Assembly: GCA_035765895.1 (NCBI GenBank)
Contig: DASTWL010000012.1
Location: 1-38,564 of the forward strand
DNA from: Verrucomicrobiia bacterium
Lineage (GTDB): Bacteria; Verrucomicrobiota; Verrucomicrobiia; Limisphaerales; DSYF01
Length of the DNA: 38,564 bases
Direction of reading: 5' to 3'
Made by a program: the position numbers and the translations under genes. The notes under the pieces were generated by a model. That model had not been told where the DNA came from, made no database searches, and saw nothing but the letters and a program-made list of their open reading frames with translations. Below, piece after piece: positions 1-21,023 of this stretch (its first letter is position 1; each line of letters opens with the position of its first letter).

Positions 1-65
1 GCTCGCTGCGTTCATTGGTGGCCGGCAAATCCGTGTTCATCGGCGTCCCTCCGTGGTTGGGGCAG

Positions 66-158
66 GGTTGAGGGTTGAGCGTTGAGGGGGCGGCCAACCC
101 ACCCCTGGCCCCTCCCGGGAGGGGAGCTTCGGTTCGTGTGGTTCGTGTGGTTCGTGGT
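66..158. repeat. Short tandem repeats upstream of vsr
   Basis: Two low-complexity tracts lie just upstream of the vsr start. Positions 66-90 hold three imperfect copies of a GGTTGAG-like heptamer. Positions 131-157 hold three copies of the nonamer GGTTCGTGT, the last one degenerate. No gene is supported in positions 1-170. I see no ribosome binding site before the GTG at 171, so these tracts may be all that is left of the original leader. Confidence 0.6.
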
Positions 159-7918: not shown

Positions 7919-7978
7919 GATCAATCCGGTCACTACGCCGGATGACGAACCTGCCGCAAGCGCGCCGCCTTGTCGAGC

Positions 7979-8007
7979 TTGTCGCTGCGCAACGGCTGCG
8001 CCATAGT
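7979..8007 (+). promoter_or_regulatory. Putative promoter of ubiX
   Basis: TTGTCG (7979-7984), a 17-bp spacer and CATAGT (8002-8007) form a sigma-70-like arrangement ending 13 bp before the GTG at 8021. The same CATAGT hexamer is used in the better padR promoter at 10012-10040. The match is moderate and was found by eye. Confidence 0.3.
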
Positions 8008-8020
8008 TTGCGCGCCGATT

Positions 8021-8578
8021 GTGAAAATTCTTGTCGCCATCACCGGAGCCAGCGGTGCGCTCTACGCCCAGCGCCTGCTGGACCACCTCGACCCGCGCCA
8101 GCACGAAATCCACATCGTGCTCAGCAACTACGCCAATCAGGTCATCCGCGAGGAACTGCCCGCCGGTTTGCAACTCCGGGAGGGCGTGCAAACGCACAGC
8201 CTCAAGAGCATGAATGCCCCGTTCGCCAGCGGCTCCAATCCGCCGGACGTCATGGTCGTCATCCCGTGCAGCATGGGCACCATGGGCCGCATCGCCCACG
8301 GTTACAGCGAGGACGTCCTGCTGCGCGCGGCCGACGTGGTGCTGAAGGAAAAGCGCCGGCTCATTCTCGTTCCGCGCGAAACGCCCTTGAATTTGGTTCA
8401 CGTGAAGAACATGGAACTGCTGCTGCTGGCCGGCGCCACGATTCTTCCCGCCAATCCCTCCTACTACACGCGGCCCAACACCGTCGAGCAGGTCGTGGAT
8501 ACGGTCGTGGCCCGGGTGCTCGATCACATCGGCGTCTCCCATCAGCTCGTCGCGCGCTGGAGCGAGGAGAAGGAATAG
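8021..8578 (+). CDS. ubiX: UbiX-family flavin prenyltransferase
   Basis: UbiX makes prenylated FMN, the cofactor of UbiD-type decarboxylases, from FMN and dimethylallyl phosphate. This 185-residue protein opens with the flavin-binding 'VKILVAITGASGALYAQRLL' and contains 'IPCSMGTMGRIAHGYSEDVLLRAADVVLKEKRRLILVPRETPLN' and 'HVKNMELLLLAGATILPANPSYYTRP', all family hallmarks. GTG 8021 was chosen because translation there begins exactly at the conserved core; a TTG 17 codons upstream adds unrelated residues. The downstream neighbours are a UbiA-type prenyltransferase (9082) and mqnE (11660), which fits a menaquinone gene set of the futalosine type. Its stop is one base before the ATG of the inserted four-helix-bundle gene. 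Confidence 0.93.
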   Translation: MKILVAITGASGALYAQRLLDHLDPRQHEIHIVLSNYANQVIREELPAGLQLREGVQTHSLKSMNAPFASGSNPPDVMVVIPCSMGTMGRIAHGYSEDVLLRAADVVLKEKRRLILVPRETPLNLVHVKNMELLLLAGATILPANPSYYTRPNTVEQVVDTVVARVLDHIGVSHQLVARWSEEKE

Positions 8579-8579
8579 A

Positions 8580-9044
8580 ATGGAAAAACATCGAACACCG
8601 AACACTGAACGCCGAACATCGAACGGGGCAGGTGGACGCGGCACTGGGCGTGTATTCGATTTGGAGGATCGATTGCTGGAATTTGCTTCGGCGGTAATCG
8701 ATGTCACGGAGAAACTCCCGAACTCCCGTTCGGGCAACCATGTAGCGGGCCAGTTGTTGCGCAGCGGCACCTCACCGTTTTCAAATCACGGGGAGGCGGA
8801 ATCCGCTGAATCACCCGATGATTTCATCCACAAGCTGAAGATTTGCTTGAGGGAACTTCGTGAAACCCGGCGGTGGCTTCGGTTGATTTATCGCCAGAGC
8901 TGGCTGCGAACTGACCAGCAACTTCAGGCGGCTCTCATCGAAGTGGAGGAGTTGACGCGCATCTTCGTCGCCAGCATCCGCACAGCTAAACAGAACCAGA
9001 TTCAGAGCAAAACCAACAAGTCAACCCCAGACACTCGAAGCTGA
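8580..9044 (+). CDS. S23-type four-helix-bundle protein within an inverted-repeat element
   Basis: This 154-residue protein has the four-helix-bundle (23S intervening-sequence protein, TIGR02436-like) signature 'GNHVAGQLLRSGTSPFSNHGEAESAESPDDFIHKLKICLRELRETRRWLRLI'. The first ~15 residues (MEKHRTPNTERRTSN) are not family-like; they are the translation of the left terminal repeat. The ATG follows the ubiX stop by one base. A purine-rich GGAGAAGGA from the end of ubiX sits at ribosome-binding distance, so the gene borrows the ubiX translation context. Relatives occur in IVS elements of 23S rRNA genes and as diversity-generating-retroelement accessory proteins (Avd), but their biochemical role is unclear. 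Here the gene lies between two menaquinone genes and inside inverted repeats, which suggests a passenger of a small mobile element. Confidence 0.88.
   Translation: MEKHRTPNTERRTSNGAGGRGTGRVFDLEDRLLEFASAVIDVTEKLPNSRSGNHVAGQLLRSGTSPFSNHGEAESAESPDDFIHKLKICLRELRETRRWLRLIYRQSWLRTDQQLQAALIEVEELTRIFVASIRTAKQNQIQSKTNKSTPDTRS
8582..8624 (+). repeat. Left terminal inverted repeat of the four-helix-bundle element
   Basis: This is a run of GAAC-A-C/T-CG-type units beginning GGAAAAACATCGAACA. It pairs with the reverse complement of 9046-9090, which begins GGAAAACATCGAACATCG. The outer ~22 bases match with one indel and one substitution. Further in, both contain CTGAAC-G/A-CCGAA, offset by a 7-base insertion. 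Confidence 0.85.
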
Positions 9045-9045
9045 A

Positions 9046-9090
9046 ACACTTCGGTGTTCAGTATTCGATGTTCGATGTTCGATGTTTTCC
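9046..9090 (-). repeat. Right terminal inverted repeat of the four-helix-bundle element
   Basis: This is the inverted partner of 8582-8624, containing three tandem units of CGATGTT. It ends at GTTTTCC (9084-9090). The ATG of ubiA (9082-9084) lies inside this arm, so the element reaches into the ubiA coding region by about three codons. Confidence 0.85.
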
Positions 9091-9984
9091 TTAATTAGCA
9101 AATGGGCCGGCTTCGTGCGCTTCTCGCACACCATTTTCGCCCTGCCGTTCGCGCTGGCGGCGATGGCGGTCGCCGCGCGTGACCAGCGCGGCTGGCCCGG
9201 CTGGCGCACGTTTGGATTGATCCTGGCCGCGATGGTCTGCGCCCGCACCTGTGCGATGGCGTTCAACCGCATCGTGGACCGCAAGTTCGACGCGGAAAAC
9301 CCCCGCACGGCCAAACGGCACCTGCCCGCGGGCCAGATCAGCCTCGCCAGTGCCGTCCTGCTGTGCCTGCTGGCCGCCGCCGGCCTGATCGGCGCCGCAT
9401 TCTTTCTGAATCCGCTCTGCTTCCGGCTCTCGCCGGCGGCGTTGATCGTCATTTGCTTCTACTCGCTGACCAAACGGTTCACGGATTTCACCCACGTCTT
9501 TCTCGGCGTCGCGCTGGCGTTGGCTCCCATCGGCGCGTGGCTCGCCGTGAAAGGCGCCCACGTCTCATCGCTGGAAATCCTGCAAATGTCCGTGCTCGCC
9601 GTCGCCGTCATCCTGTGGCTCGTCGGGTTCGACATCATTTACGCCTTGCAGGACTACGATTTTGACCGCACGCGCGGTCTGCACTCGCTGGTGGTGCGTT
9701 GGGGGCCCGATAACGCCCTGGCCGCCGCCTTCCTGGCGCACATGATCATGTGCGGCCTGCTCTTCGCCTTCGGCCAGCTCTGCCGGTTCCGCATCGCCTA
9801 CACGGTGGGCTGGACCCTCATCGCGCTCTGTCTGGCGCTGGAACATTGGATTGCCCGCCGCCGCAGCCTGAACTGGATCAACCTCGCCTTCTTCCGGCTG
9901 AACGCGCTCATCAGCATGGTCTTTCTTGCCGTGACCGTGGCGGAAGTCGTCTTCCACGGCGGATTCCAGCTTGCCGACCACTGA
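9082..9984 (+). CDS. UbiA-family prenyltransferase (menaquinone-type, MqnP-like)
   Basis: This 300-residue integral membrane enzyme transfers a polyprenyl chain to an aromatic acceptor. The first Asp-rich motif 'NRIVDRKFDAENPRT' is near residues 72-86 and the second 'YALQDYDFDRTRGLHS' near 189-204. The N-terminal 'FVRFSHTIFALPFALAAMAVA' is typical of the group that includes MqnP and bacterial 4-hydroxybenzoate prenyltransferases. About eight hydrophobic helices are visible. Neighbouring ubiX and mqnE favour a role in futalosine-pathway menaquinone synthesis over ubiquinone. The start codon is ATG 9082, which lies within the right repeat of the inserted element, so residues 1-3 (MFS) come from repeat sequence. 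No ribosome binding site is seen before it. Confidence 0.9.
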   Translation: MFSLISKWAGFVRFSHTIFALPFALAAMAVAARDQRGWPGWRTFGLILAAMVCARTCAMAFNRIVDRKFDAENPRTAKRHLPAGQISLASAVLLCLLAAAGLIGAAFFLNPLCFRLSPAALIVICFYSLTKRFTDFTHVFLGVALALAPIGAWLAVKGAHVSSLEILQMSVLAVAVILWLVGFDIIYALQDYDFDRTRGLHSLVVRWGPDNALAAAFLAHMIMCGLLFAFGQLCRFRIAYTVGWTLIALCLALEHWIARRRSLNWINLAFFRLNALISMVFLAVTVAEVVFHGGFQLADH

Positions 9985-11659: not shown

Positions 11660-12979
11660 ATGCATTTTTTTGTTCAACGCAGCGAACTGCGCGACATCTA
11701 CGACAAAGTGGCCGAGGGCCGGCGGATTTCCGAGGCTGACGCGCTCCGCCTTTTCGAGAGCAAGGACCTCAATGCCGTCGGCGCCATCGCCGACCTGGCG
11801 CGCCAGAAGAAAGTCGGCGACCGCGCCAGCTATATCGTCAACCGCTACATCAACTACTCGAATTACTGCATCCTGAGCTGCCAGTTCTGCTCCTTCGCGC
11901 GCAAGAAACGCGACGCCGACGGCTTCCAGTTCACCGTGCCCGAGATGGTCGAGAAGGCGCGCGAAGCGTTGAAGATTGGCATCACCGAACTGCACATTGT
12001 CGGCGGGTTGCACCCCTCGCTGCCGTTCAATTACTACACGGATATGCTCAAAGCGCTGAACGCGCTCAATGATGAATCGTGTAGCACCCGTGTCTCGCGG
12101 GCCGGTTCGGGCGTCTCGCCCGAATCATCGGACGCTGCCAGTTTGGGGGCCGAAAAGTCAGGAGAGGAAGATTTTCGGCGGGACGCCGAAAACAACCCGC
12201 GAGACACGGGTGCTACACGACTTCATTTGAAATGCTTTACTGCGATTGAAATCCTTCACCTGGCGTGGCTGGCCAAGAAATCGGTTGAGCAAACACTGAT
12301 TGAATTGAAAGAGGCCGGCCTCGATTCACTCACGGGCGGTGGCGCGGAAATTTTCCGCAAGGAAGTCCGCAGCGCCATCGCCAAGGGCAAGGAATCCGCC
12401 GAGGAATACCTCGACGTGCATCGCACGTGGCACCGGCTTGGCCAGCGCAGCACCTGCACCATGCTCTTCGGCCACGTGGAATCGCTCGCCGACCGCGTGG
12501 ACCACCTCCGCATGCTCCGCGAATTGCAGGATGAAACGCACGGCTTCGTCGGCTTCATCCCGCTCGCGTATCAGCCCGAGCACAACAACATCCCCGTCAC
12601 GCACCCGCCGACCGGCTACGACGCGCTGCGCACCATCGCGGTCGCGCGCACCTACCTCGACAACTTCGACCACGTCACGGCCTACTGGGTCGGGCTGGGG
12701 ATGAAGCTGGCGCAGGTGGCGTTGAGCTACGGCGCGGACGACATCCACGGGACGATCATCGAGGAACACATCTTCCGCATGGCCGGCGGGCAGGCGCCGC
12801 AACTGCAGGCCGAGGCGGACCTGCTGAAAGCCATCCGCGAAACCGGCCGCACGCCCGTCCAACGAAACACCTTCTACGAGCCCATCAAAGTCTGGGAGCC
12901 GTTGCCGGCAGCGAACAACGGCGGTGAGCTGAAACAGCAACCTTCCGCCGGGCTGGAGAAGAATCTGGCGACAGGGTGA
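11660..12979 (+). CDS. mqnE: Aminofutalosine synthase MqnE (radical SAM) with in-frame repeat insertion
   Basis: MqnE joins 3-[(1-carboxyvinyl)oxy]benzoate and S-adenosylmethionine to give aminofutalosine, an early step of futalosine-type menaquinone synthesis. The 4Fe-4S motif 'CILSCQFCSF' lies near residues 72-81. Other family blocks are 'ITELHIVGGLHPSLPFNYYTDMLKAL', 'HLKCFTAIEI', 'LTGGGAEIF', 'TCTMLFGHVE', 'GFIPLAYQPEHN' and 'GADDIHGTIIEEHIFRMAGG'. The product is 439 residues against a usual ~370-390. The surplus is about 48 residues (roughly 140-187, SCSTRVSRAG to DTGATR), encoded by a palindromic element at 12077-12220. The element is exactly 144 bp, keeps the frame and has no stop. It sits in the loop before the strand 'LKCFTAIEI', outside the cluster motif. 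ATG 11660 follows GGGCGAG. Confidence 0.92.
   Translation: MHFFVQRSELRDIYDKVAEGRRISEADALRLFESKDLNAVGAIADLARQKKVGDRASYIVNRYINYSNYCILSCQFCSFARKKRDADGFQFTVPEMVEKAREALKIGITELHIVGGLHPSLPFNYYTDMLKALNALNDESCSTRVSRAGSGVSPESSDAASLGAEKSGEEDFRRDAENNPRDTGATRLHLKCFTAIEILHLAWLAKKSVEQTLIELKEAGLDSLTGGGAEIFRKEVRSAIAKGKESAEEYLDVHRTWHRLGQRSTCTMLFGHVESLADRVDHLRMLRELQDETHGFVGFIPLAYQPEHNNIPVTHPPTGYDALRTIAVARTYLDNFDHVTAYWVGLGMKLAQVALSYGADDIHGTIIEEHIFRMAGGQAPQLQAEADLLKAIRETGRTPVQRNTFYEPIKVWEPLPAANNGGELKQQPSAGLEKNLATG
12077..12220. repeat. 144-bp palindromic element inserted in frame in mqnE
   Basis: The outer arms at 12077-12100 and 12197-12220 are a perfect 24-bp inverted repeat with core GTAGCACCCGTGTCTCGC. Inside are two perfect hairpins: TTCGGGCG-TCT-CGCCCGAA (12106-12124) and TTTTCGGCG-GGA-CGCCGAAAA (12172-12192). 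The length is 48 codons exactly. The structure resembles a composite REP/BIME-like or MITE-like element. Near-perfect arms inside a conserved gene suggest recent insertion or selection for the structure. Confidence 0.9.
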
Positions 12980-18329: not shown

Positions 18330-21023
18330 TCAATCATCGTCGCCCACCAGCTTCACCGCCCATTCAGGATACGGCGTCTGCGGCCCTTTCATCGCGCGCC
18401 AGAGGATGCGATTGAGCGTGTCCTCGGGGCACTGGTCCGGTTCGGTGAGCGGCAATCGCGCACTCACGAGTGCATCACGACGCAATTGCGCGTCGGCCAC
18501 CTTTTTCGGATCCGGATTCATTTCGTCGAGCGGCACTTGATTCGTCACCGCTGTGAATGGCGCGAAGTCGGGCACGTCGGTGAAGCAATCCGCCATCGGC
18601 GTGGCTGTGGCGTCGAGCTGGTTCATCGGCGGCAGGCCGAGGATGAGTTCCATCGTGCGGATCAAGCTCGTCTGGTTGTAACGCGTGTGGATGACTGCGC
18701 CGCGTTTGGTGTAGGGGCTGGCCACGTAGGCCGTCGAACGGTAGCCGCTGACGTGATCCCAGCCGTCCTGCGGATCGTCTTCCATCGCGAACACCACCGT
18801 GTTCGACCAAAATGAACTGTGGCTGAGCGCCTCAATCACCTGCCCCATGGCGAGGTCATTGTCGGCCACCTGCGCGGCAGGCGTGGGCTGGCCGACGCCC
18901 GTGCCGCTGGTGTGATCATTCGGCAAATAAAGAATCGTGAACGCCGGAAGACTGCCGTTGCGTTCACATTCCTGAAGATTGGCGATGAACTGTTGCGCCC
19001 GCCAGACGTCGGGGATTTTCAAATCCCAACCTGCGGTGTTCGTCACGATGTAGGGCTGCAACGAGGCGATGCCGGCTTCGCTCCAGCGCCGAACCGTATT
19101 CGTGCCTTTGGTGAAATCCTCCCAGTGATCGCGGAAGTGAATTCTCCCTTTGCGGGTCGGATCGGCCCATCGCGCCTGGGTGAAGCAAAACTCGCCGAAC
19201 ACGCGCAGCGACCGGCCGTGCGCCAGCAGGTTGTCCCAGATGAAGCCGGCGGGCGAATACGCCAGCGCGTCCACGTCGTCCTCGCCCGCGCCGTCGGGAT
19301 AGCTGCGCGGAAAACCGGCGAAGGACTTTTCCATGTAATCCGTGGCCATCGCGGTCGTGGCCCATTGATGCCCGTCCGCGCTGAGAATGCCCGAGCAGTA
19401 GGTGTTGTCGAGCAGGGCGAATTCACGCACGATCTGGTGCTGGTTCGGCGTCACGCGTTCGCCGAAAATGCAGAGGCTCGGGTCGCCATTGCCGCGCAAA
19501 TCGTCGCCGAGCACCTGATCGTAGGTGCGGTTTTCCTTGATGATATACACCACGTGCCGAAACACGCCGGGCTCGCCGACCCGCTCGGGCACGGGCCGCG
19601 GCGGCTGACCGGGCCGCGCCGGCAACGCCGCCTGACGCAACCGGGGATAGCGCATGTTCGCCAGCGCGATGCCGGTGTATTTCCGCAGGCCCCATTTCGC
19701 GGGCACCGGCACCAGCGAGAGTGAGCCAGTGTATTGATGGGTGTTGAAGCCCACGCCCGGTGCGCGCCGGGCCTGCATGGGCCGGGCGGGCAGGCCCTTG
19801 ATGTTCGCCACGCAAAGCTGATCGCGCCGCGCGTCGAAGACGATGGCGCCCGGAAACCAGCCCACGGGAATCAAGCCCTGCCATTCGGATTTCCCCGGCT
19901 TGAACGCGATGACGGCCACGGCGTTCTGCGTGCCGTTGCACACGAACAACCGCCGGCCGGATTTGTCGAACGCGAGCGCATTCGGTTGCGCGCCGAACAA
20001 ATCGCCGGGGTTTTGCCGCGCCCAGATGGTTTCCACAATCTGGTCCGTGCGCGTGTCGATGACTGAAAGCGTGTCGCTGCCGGCGTTCGCCACCACGAGG
20101 TGACGCCGGTTCGGCGACACCGCCAGCGCGGAGGCGTGCAGGCCGACCAAAAGCTCCGCATTCTGCATTCCGCGCTCCGCGCTTAACTCAATCACGCTGA
20201 CCGAGCCCTCGCTTGCAATGGAGCGCACCGGATCCACGCGCACCACTGTGCCGCGACCGGCCGGACCCGTGAGATCGCCCGGCCCGGGCCGGCGCCCGCC
20301 CCAATTGCTGACGTAGGCTTTGTGCCCCACGAGCACCACGTCGTAAGGCGCCACGCCCACGTCCCACGTGCGCAGGACCTGGCCCGAGGCGGCATCGAGC
20401 TCGAACAGGCGATTGGACAAGTTTCCGCACACGTAAAGTCGCGAACCATCCGCGGACAACGCGAGGCCGGCGGGAATTTCATTCTTCCGGCGCGGCACAT
20501 TGGCCGGCGGCAGCGGCATGGAAAACCGGCCGGAGATTTTCCCATCCTTGGCCACCGTGAACACCTTGACGCTGCCGTTGACGTTGGCGAGGTAAAGCCG
20601 CTTGCCATCGGGCGAGAAAATCAGCCCGGTGTAGCTCAACTGGCCGTCCTGGTCGGGCTCGAGAATGTTCGCCGAAACCGCATCCGGCACTTCGTTGGCC
20701 TGGTCGGAAGGGAGCGCGACGTGCTGGAGGATTTGACCACTGGCCGGGTTGAGCACCAACAGCTCACTCTTCTTGCCGGTGGTTACCAGCAGCCGACCAT
20801 TGGGGCTGAGCGCCAGTGCCTGCGGGCGAAAGCCGGGCAGCGACACGAACCGGCCCACCGGCGTGAGCCGCTGGTTGACCGGCGTCATCCATTCATCCGG
20901 ACCGGTTTGCGCCACCGGGCCCGTATCCGGCAATTCGGCCCGCAGCAGGACGGGACTGAGCAGCAGCAAAGCCAGCACCCGGTGGGCGGCGAAACCTTTC
21001 CGAAACGGCAGGGGGCATGTCAT
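18330..21023 (-). CDS. Secreted YncE-like beta-propeller fused to phosphoesterase (alkaline phosphatase-like) domain
   Basis: This 897-residue protein has a signal peptide (VLALLLLSPVLLRA, about 15-28). Residues ~45-460 form a seven-bladed YncE/lactonase-like propeller with repeats such as 'PQALALSPNGRLLVTTGKKSELLVLNPASGQIL' and 'LVVANAGSDTLSVIDTRTDQIVETI'. Residues ~490-880 match the phosphoesterase family of PF04185 ('HVVYIIKENRTYDQVLGDD', 'NQHQIVREFALLDNTYCSGILSADGHQWATTAMATDYMEKSF', 'FTILYLPNDHTSGTG', 'VFAMEDDPQDGWDHVSGYRSTAYVASPYTKRG', 'TSLIRTMELILGLPPMNQLDATATPM'). Relatives include phospholipase C-like and acid phosphatase enzymes. This fusion is widespread in Verrucomicrobiota and Planctomycetes, and its substrate is unknown. 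It faces the 21103 gene across a short divergent region. Confidence 0.9.
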   Translation of the reverse strand: MTCPLPFRKGFAAHRVLALLLLSPVLLRAELPDTGPVAQTGPDEWMTPVNQRLTPVGRFVSLPGFRPQALALSPNGRLLVTTGKKSELLVLNPASGQILQHVALPSDQANEVPDAVSANILEPDQDGQLSYTGLIFSPDGKRLYLANVNGSVKVFTVAKDGKISGRFSMPLPPANVPRRKNEIPAGLALSADGSRLYVCGNLSNRLFELDAASGQVLRTWDVGVAPYDVVLVGHKAYVSNWGGRRPGPGDLTGPAGRGTVVRVDPVRSIASEGSVSVIELSAERGMQNAELLVGLHASALAVSPNRRHLVVANAGSDTLSVIDTRTDQIVETIWARQNPGDLFGAQPNALAFDKSGRRLFVCNGTQNAVAVIAFKPGKSEWQGLIPVGWFPGAIVFDARRDQLCVANIKGLPARPMQARRAPGVGFNTHQYTGSLSLVPVPAKWGLRKYTGIALANMRYPRLRQAALPARPGQPPRPVPERVGEPGVFRHVVYIIKENRTYDQVLGDDLRGNGDPSLCIFGERVTPNQHQIVREFALLDNTYCSGILSADGHQWATTAMATDYMEKSFAGFPRSYPDGAGEDDVDALAYSPAGFIWDNLLAHGRSLRVFGEFCFTQARWADPTRKGRIHFRDHWEDFTKGTNTVRRWSEAGIASLQPYIVTNTAGWDLKIPDVWRAQQFIANLQECERNGSLPAFTILYLPNDHTSGTGVGQPTPAAQVADNDLAMGQVIEALSHSSFWSNTVVFAMEDDPQDGWDHVSGYRSTAYVASPYTKRGAVIHTRYNQTSLIRTMELILGLPPMNQLDATATPMADCFTDVPDFAPFTAVTNQVPLDEMNPDPKKVADAQLRRDALVSARLPLTEPDQCPEDTLNRILWRAMKGPQTPYPEWAVKLVGDDD

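Follow-up and report, generated by a model that had tools for sequence, protein, structure and literature searches.

Why should a gene of the S23 four-helix-bundle type, bracketed by inverted repeats, lie between ubiX and ubiA, and does it travel as a unit or belong to the operon? In the window (the whole stretch of 38,564 nucleotides that was analysed), a first-pass annotation had described an S23 gene within inverted arms, with its ATG one base past the ubiX stop and its right arm ending in ubiA. The ORF coordinates and the arms (8585-8623 and 9050-9088) confirmed that the S23 unit with repeat arms is real.

The S23 unit in the window

The upstream operon neighbour is a ubiX-like flavin prenyltransferase gene (ORF at 7970..8578, forward strand; TIGR00421, E = 1.8e-57; PF02441, E = 8.4e-44), the true start of which may be further in. 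The ATG of the S23 (23S_rRNA_IVP) gene is at position 8580, one base past the ubiX end at 8578. This gene (8580..9044, forward strand) codes for a four-helix-bundle protein of 154 aa that matched Pfam PF05635 (E = 4.1e-13, residues 33-128) and TIGR02436 (E = 2.3e-23), both above cut-off. The closest solved structure is PDB 2RLD (E = 1.9e-16), deposited with five chains. Downstream lies a ubiA-like prenyltransferase gene (9082..9984, forward strand; TIGR01475, E = 3.5e-82). The unit is thus located between two protein genes and not in 23S rRNA.

The inverted-repeat search revealed a left arm (8585..8624, forward strand) of about five 7-nt units (AAACATC, GAACACC, GAACACT, GAACGCC and GAACATC, followed by GAAC), with a period-7 array at 8587-8624. 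The right arm (9050..9088, reverse strand; period-7 array at 9064-9086) is made of reverse-complementary 7-nt units (TTCGGTGTTCAGTATTCGATGTTCGATGTTCGATGTTTT), and enters ubiA for 7 nt, so that the ubiA ATG is within the arm. Over 39 nt (8585-8623 and 9050-9088) the arms are 82% complementary, and 90% over the inner 30 nt. The best inverted match of the left arm scored 22.5, versus a 95th percentile of 10.5 in random 3-kb stretches of the same genome. Residues 1 to ~15-20 of the S23 protein (MEKHRTPNTERRTSN) are the left arm translated, and the S23 domain (residues ~27-140) begins only thereafter.

Neither the ORF list nor the profile search revealed a transposase gene inside the unit, in keeping with its first description as a compact, repeat-bounded S23 unit without a transposase of its own. 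No meaningful Rfam match was obtained, and assignment to a known RNA family was rejected. A GAACATC family dispersed genome-wide was also rejected, since three-unit matches were almost confined to the window locus, with four other weak sites.

Matched heptad arms are a property of S23 genes

To place the unit in its family, 80 S23 loci were gathered across many phyla in GTDB, among them archaea of the Methanophagales, and 77 of these loci were testable. Arms were called when the inverted match between upstream and downstream flanks exceeded the 99th percentile of mismatched pairs. In this set 68% of the loci were above the threshold; the loci had been picked by a conserved peptide, and hence divergent S23 genes such as that of the window are under-sampled. 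A second set of 77 S23 loci, overlapping the first in part, was compared with 188 neighbouring genes of the same loci. Matched inverted arms were found at 68% of the S23 genes versus 2% of the neighbouring genes; at about one third of the S23 genes the arms were not above threshold. The median inverted-arm score was 19.0-19.5 for S23 genes, 8.5 for cross-element pairs, 9.5 in direct orientation and 9.0 for the 188 neighbouring genes. On these values we rejected the idea that S23 had entered a tandem array already in place, because the flanks would then be direct repeats (median 9.5 in direct versus 19.5 in inverted orientation). Both neighbours were co-directional with S23 at 51 of the 77 loci. 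A crude motif search placed none of the S23 loci L148-L227 within 23S rRNA.

The autocorrelation of the arms was high at lags 7 and 14 (0.69 and 0.70, respectively), against 0.21-0.32 at other lags. The heptad word differs between elements, and within an element the left arm is the reverse complement of the right arm, often including unit variants. The heptads of 59 elements revealed a weak left-arm motif that is oriented to S23, roughly (AGtnntC)n or AG[T/G]nnT[C/T], with an information of 2.63 bits versus a null maximum of 2.09; the window's own heptad fits it poorly. Most arms are 4-5 units long (42 of 65 left arms, 48 of 65 right arms); a sharp peak at five units was not borne out, and the 4-5 spread is suggestive only. 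Covariation between heptad and S23 sequence was weak (r = 0.15, p = 0.0035). Hence, arms are matched within an element, differ between elements, have a period of 7 and a weak oriented motif, and are tied to S23 rather than to its neighbours.

The window genome itself carries six PF05635 genes. Arms were above threshold at three of the six, with the words GAACATC (window), GAGTGCG (L005; 32 nt, 94% complementary) and GGAGAAA (L003; 36 nt, 81%), and weak at L001, L002 and L004. A scan from the edges of the profile match overlooks the arms of the window, since the translated left arm falls within that match. The arms are therefore not confined to this site, and the expectation that the same arms would flank other S23 genes was borne out for the arms but not for their sequence: GAACATC is not shared by the other S23 genes, each element has its own heptad, and the GAACATC-like units are one case of a general period-7 design.

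S23 elements appear as clean insertions at operon junctions of cyanobacterial plasmids

Cyanobacterial plasmids carry S23 insertions of 417-428 bp at operon junctions, and the corresponding empty sites are 91-98% identical. In Trichormus variabilis (L230) an insert of 428 bp separates a stop codon from the start that follows it; the site is empty in Aulosira and Tolypothrix plasmids (L235/L236), with both flanks 97-98% identical, and a truncated copy of the insert was found in a Nostoc plasmid. In Nostoc C052 (L231) a 417-bp insert occupies a 3-nt gap that is empty in ~92% identical sister plasmids (L238/L239/L243). Nostoc ATCC 53789 (L242) is without the L231 insert, but at the junction that follows it carries another S23 element, with GGGAAAA as its word, as judged against the empty site in L238. 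The L230, L231 and L240 elements, at three different loci, are 74-76% alike overall and 78-81% over ~419 bp. A possible target-site duplication, GTAA, was seen at L230/L235; other sites are ambiguous. A further S23 element lies between cas6 and cas4 (L233), and another, in antisense orientation, separates nrdB from nrdA (L228); S23 copies are patchy in presence, with up to 16 per genome. These results show that S23 elements appear as clean insertions at gene junctions of operons. Carriage by phages was rejected, with no match in 50,697 phage records.

At the cas6-cas4 site of Anabaena sp. 90 pANA02 (L233:1629-1991), in a type I-D CRISPR-Cas operon, the left array extends over >300 bp (AGGTGAC/AGGGAAC) and is absent from an otherwise 98.9% identical Dolichospermum.

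The element at ubiX-ubiA is old and vertically inherited

The order ubiX-S23-ubiA, arms included, was found in ~20 genomes of the order. At this locus S23 distances correlate with UbiA distances (Mantel r = 0.52, p = 0.0005), and the S23 orthologues have a median dN/dS of ~0.10 (57 pairs), which indicates purifying selection. A member of the same family (G002, L038) retains an apparent decayed S23 remnant at ubiX-ubiA, and elsewhere the junction is tight and without S23, among others in a genome of the same genus (G001, L020). From the recurrence of order and arms, the tracking of UbiA by S23, the low dN/dS and the losses, we infer that the element is old and vertically inherited here. A recent insertion at ubiX-ubiA is not supported. 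The first-pass annotation had proposed a search for empty sites in relatives: precise presence/absence was found on the cyanobacterial plasmids but not at ubiX-ubiA, where empty sites have diverged flanks.

At 17 of the 20 orthologous loci the S23 frame begins with an ATG adjoining the ubiX stop and includes the left arm, so that the reading of the first ~15 residues as translated repeat holds beyond the window. Orthologues at the locus carry arms, of GAACATC, CAACATC, CAACATT or AACCTTG types, and a G-to-C change is present in most units of both arms, i.e., it is concerted. Neither of the two outcomes that the first-pass annotation had named as refuting, armless S23 orthologues at this locus or arms at this locus alone, was observed. 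Pairing was 0.745 within an element and 0.713 across genomes (permutation p = 0.009); the difference is slight, and selection for pairing at the ubi locus is thus modestly shown. In short, the element has been kept vertically with its protein under purifying selection, and its arm words change in concert yet stay complementary.

RNA folding of the window locus predicted 27 arm-arm base pairs and pairing probabilities of 0.90, 0.94 and 0.16 for the three bases of the ubiA start codon (median of 1.0 over the 20 orthologues). The element of the window looks domesticated, with the ubiA start codon covered by a predicted stem. An apparent in-frame heptad insertion within ubiA of G067/G051 was inspected and is not a heptad.

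Heptanucleotide arrays occur in genomes with S23 genes

In 721 kb of the window genome we detected 19 strong period-7 arrays, versus none after codon shuffling, and no strong arrays at periods 5, 10 or 11. Heptad arrays occurred once per 380 kb in five PF05635-free genomes versus 16 times per 380 kb in five genomes with 5-14 copies (p = 0.0003), a comparison in which all ten genomes are from the order and the arrays are partly clustered. Within the window, a solo 7-nt array (AGGGTTGAGGGTTGAGCGTTGA; 64..86, forward strand) has no adjoining S23 gene and is probably a remnant of the same repeat class, and a weak solo array (GCATTCTGCATTCCGCGCTCCGCGCT; 20158..20183, forward strand) is likewise without S23.

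Hairpins without S23 were also observed near S23 elements. A short inverted GAGTGCG-type hairpin (G000:C80:74965-75045; L131) adjoins the L005 S23 element (75545-76036) and, sharing its word, looks like a non-autonomous derivative. At L271:11953-13280 (G073), an S23 element with long TCAGAGA-type arms has an S23-less hairpin of similar word ~600 bp off (11953-12078). Solo heptad arrays were seen inside coding sequences at G000:C12:98615-98640, C39:45023-45049 and C33:90553-90578 and at L015:1481-1530; by eye, the host genes are an ileS-like gene, a U32-type peptidase, another enzyme and a histidine kinase.

Comparison with known elements

Heptanucleotide repeats are a known feature of bacterial genomes, and include the cyanobacterial STRR. 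Long simple sequence repeats with a 7-nt unit are described by Mrazek (2007), cited in PMC4679880. The heptads of the window genome are tandem direct 7-nt units, mostly intergenic, as in TAACTGA-type repeats. The TAACTGA repeats of Beggiatoaceae, cyanobacteria and Bacteroidetes (PMC4679880) share the 7-nt unit and the intergenic position, often just 5′ of start codons, and the reverse complement of TAACTGA (MacGregor 2015), read as the rotation AGTTATC, fits the left-arm motif. They were described as solo direct repeats, whereas here the heptads form the two matched arms of an S23 element or are probably left over from one; PMC4679880 makes no mention of S23, four-helix or intervening sequences. 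A literature search, outside the scope of which lay preprints and most subscription journals, found no paper linking S23 genes to heptad arms outside rRNA. The insertion of S23 elements at gene junctions may explain the commonness of 7-letter repeats in bacterial genomes.

The closest likeness is with the S23p-bearing intervening sequences (IVS) of 23S rRNA in Leptospira, Coxiella and others, which have an S23/PF05635 ORF of similar size inside complementary, stem-forming termini, a similar total length and a patchy distribution taken as horizontal spread. The Coxiella IVS is 428 nt long, carries the S23p ORF, has a 28-bp terminal stem cut by RNase III, and has GACAGAT heptameric direct repeats ahead of the ORF (PMC4990558). 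The IVS sit in rRNA helices, whereas the elements analysed here sit between protein genes of operons and have tandem heptads in both arms. Furthermore, Coxiella S23p is thought expendable (PMC4990558), whereas S23 at ubiX-ubiA is under clear purifying selection. REPINs/RAYTs and other MITEs are likewise short, repeat-bounded hairpin units without a transposase of their own, but the S23 arms conserve period and mutual complementarity rather than sequence, and the gene inside is S23.

A proposed mechanism

Our preferred explanation, which we consider somewhat better than even, is that the window unit belongs to a large, old class of insertion elements in which an S23 gene lies within complementary arms of ~4-5 tandem 7-nt units each. 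The class would be the protein-operon counterpart of the S23-bearing 23S rRNA IVS, with arms that form an RNA stem and are bound by an S23 ring, and its member at ubiX-ubiA would be domesticated. The S23 protein XCC0516 of Xanthomonas forms a pentameric ring, as cited in PMC4990558. Given such pentameric rings and the same build of the Coxiella rRNA IVS, the arms may be read as forming an RNA stem and offering a binding site of period 7, and the S23 pentamer probably binds them. The homopentameric ring could contact the heptads with one unit per subunit, and might assist an enzyme, of the host or acting in trans, in moving the DNA. Slippage would keep the 7-nt period, and the arms would stay matched if pairing as an RNA (or single-stranded DNA) stem is required. 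The stem in the transcript is probably a substrate of RNase III, as it is in rRNA, and would make an insert tolerable within operons. The elements would inhabit rRNA helices or operon junctions, sites that can accommodate a cleavable stem. At ubiX-ubiA the element would now be part of operon expression: translation of S23 from the ubiX stop through the left arm may open the stem, which when closed would mask the start codon of ubiA. The locus suggests that an S23 element was recruited into a quinone-pathway operon.

A bolder version can be offered only tentatively. S23 pentamers and matched heptad arms would constitute a novel type of mobility system, self-contained and domain-wide. Each subunit of the ring would recognise one of the tandem 7-nt units on an unpaired strand, and the ring would direct insertions to gene junctions of operons. 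The ends could drift as long as they stay complementary and period-7, and the system would be the source of most prokaryotic heptanucleotide repeats. The preferred explanation itself would tie three loose ends, namely what S23/IVP four-helix-bundle proteins do, where the rRNA intervening sequences come from and why heptanucleotide repeats are in excess in bacterial genomes. It predicts a simple, assayable protein-repeat interaction, and a mobile element for which period and complementarity, and not a given sequence, define the ends.

Alternative explanations

The most serious alternative, to which we give about one chance in four, is a non-autonomous element moved in trans by a Y1/RAYT or other transposase, with S23 as a passenger or accessory protein. 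The unit is without a transposase, and S23-less hairpins with the same heptad near S23 elements (C80:74965-75045; L271 of G073) are expected of trans-mobilised derivatives. The first reading of the locus had proposed a search for a Y1 (REP-associated) transposase, and Y1_Tnp genes are indeed present in the window genome (5 matches). However, a heptad array was near only one of the four RAYT loci read, a weak one, and no Y1 transposase was seen beside an S23 gene; no Y1-S23 link was thus shown. The array concerned (L017/L107; G000:C39:150775-151318) lies ~190 bp from the Y1 transposase gene, among REP-like palindromes.

It is rather unlikely that S23 is only a domesticated regulator, i.e., that it encodes a cellular RNA-binding protein and is retained in operons, with the arms as an autoregulatory site and without present or recent mobility. 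Long vertical retention, purifying selection, the coupling of the S23 ATG to the ubiX stop and the burial of the ubiA start codon in a predicted stem agree with it. Clean plasmid insertions against near-identical empty sites argue otherwise, as do the elements at cas6-cas4 and, in antisense orientation, at nrdB-nrdA, and the patchy presence with up to 16 copies per genome.

Passive slippage, by which the polymerase would favour 7-nt repeats at any palindrome with S23 genes as bystanders, is already disfavoured and appears improbable. Among repeats with units of 5-11 nt, heptanucleotides had been reported as the commonest class in most of the genomes studied, with polymerase slippage as the suggested origin (Mrazek 2007, cited in PMC4679880), and solo arrays without S23 do occur. 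Against slippage stand the matched arms at S23 genes rather than at their neighbours, the near absence of arrays from S23-free genomes of the same order, and a heptad motif oriented relative to S23.

Avd of the diversity-generating retroelements (DGRs) belongs to the same Pfam family as S23 and shares its fold, but an orphan Avd locus is highly improbable, since the whole window assembly (96% complete) has no match to the PF00078 reverse transcriptase, which refutes it, and the arms are 7-nt repeats in operons and not a template/variable repeat pair, of which none was seen. The proposal of a lifestyle outside rRNA and DGRs thus stands, and the first-pass interpretation as a whole is partly supported.

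Other repeat arrangements were also noted at these loci. The ubiX-ubiA gaps of L023 (G028) and L041 (G010) hold other inverted-repeat hairpins with ~10-nt units (GAACGCAGAT and ACACGGATGA), possibly of a different repeat class. At L265:8221-8700 (G028) the heptads are nested, with two direct CTCAACC arrays enclosing an inverted AAATGCA/ATTTTG pair.
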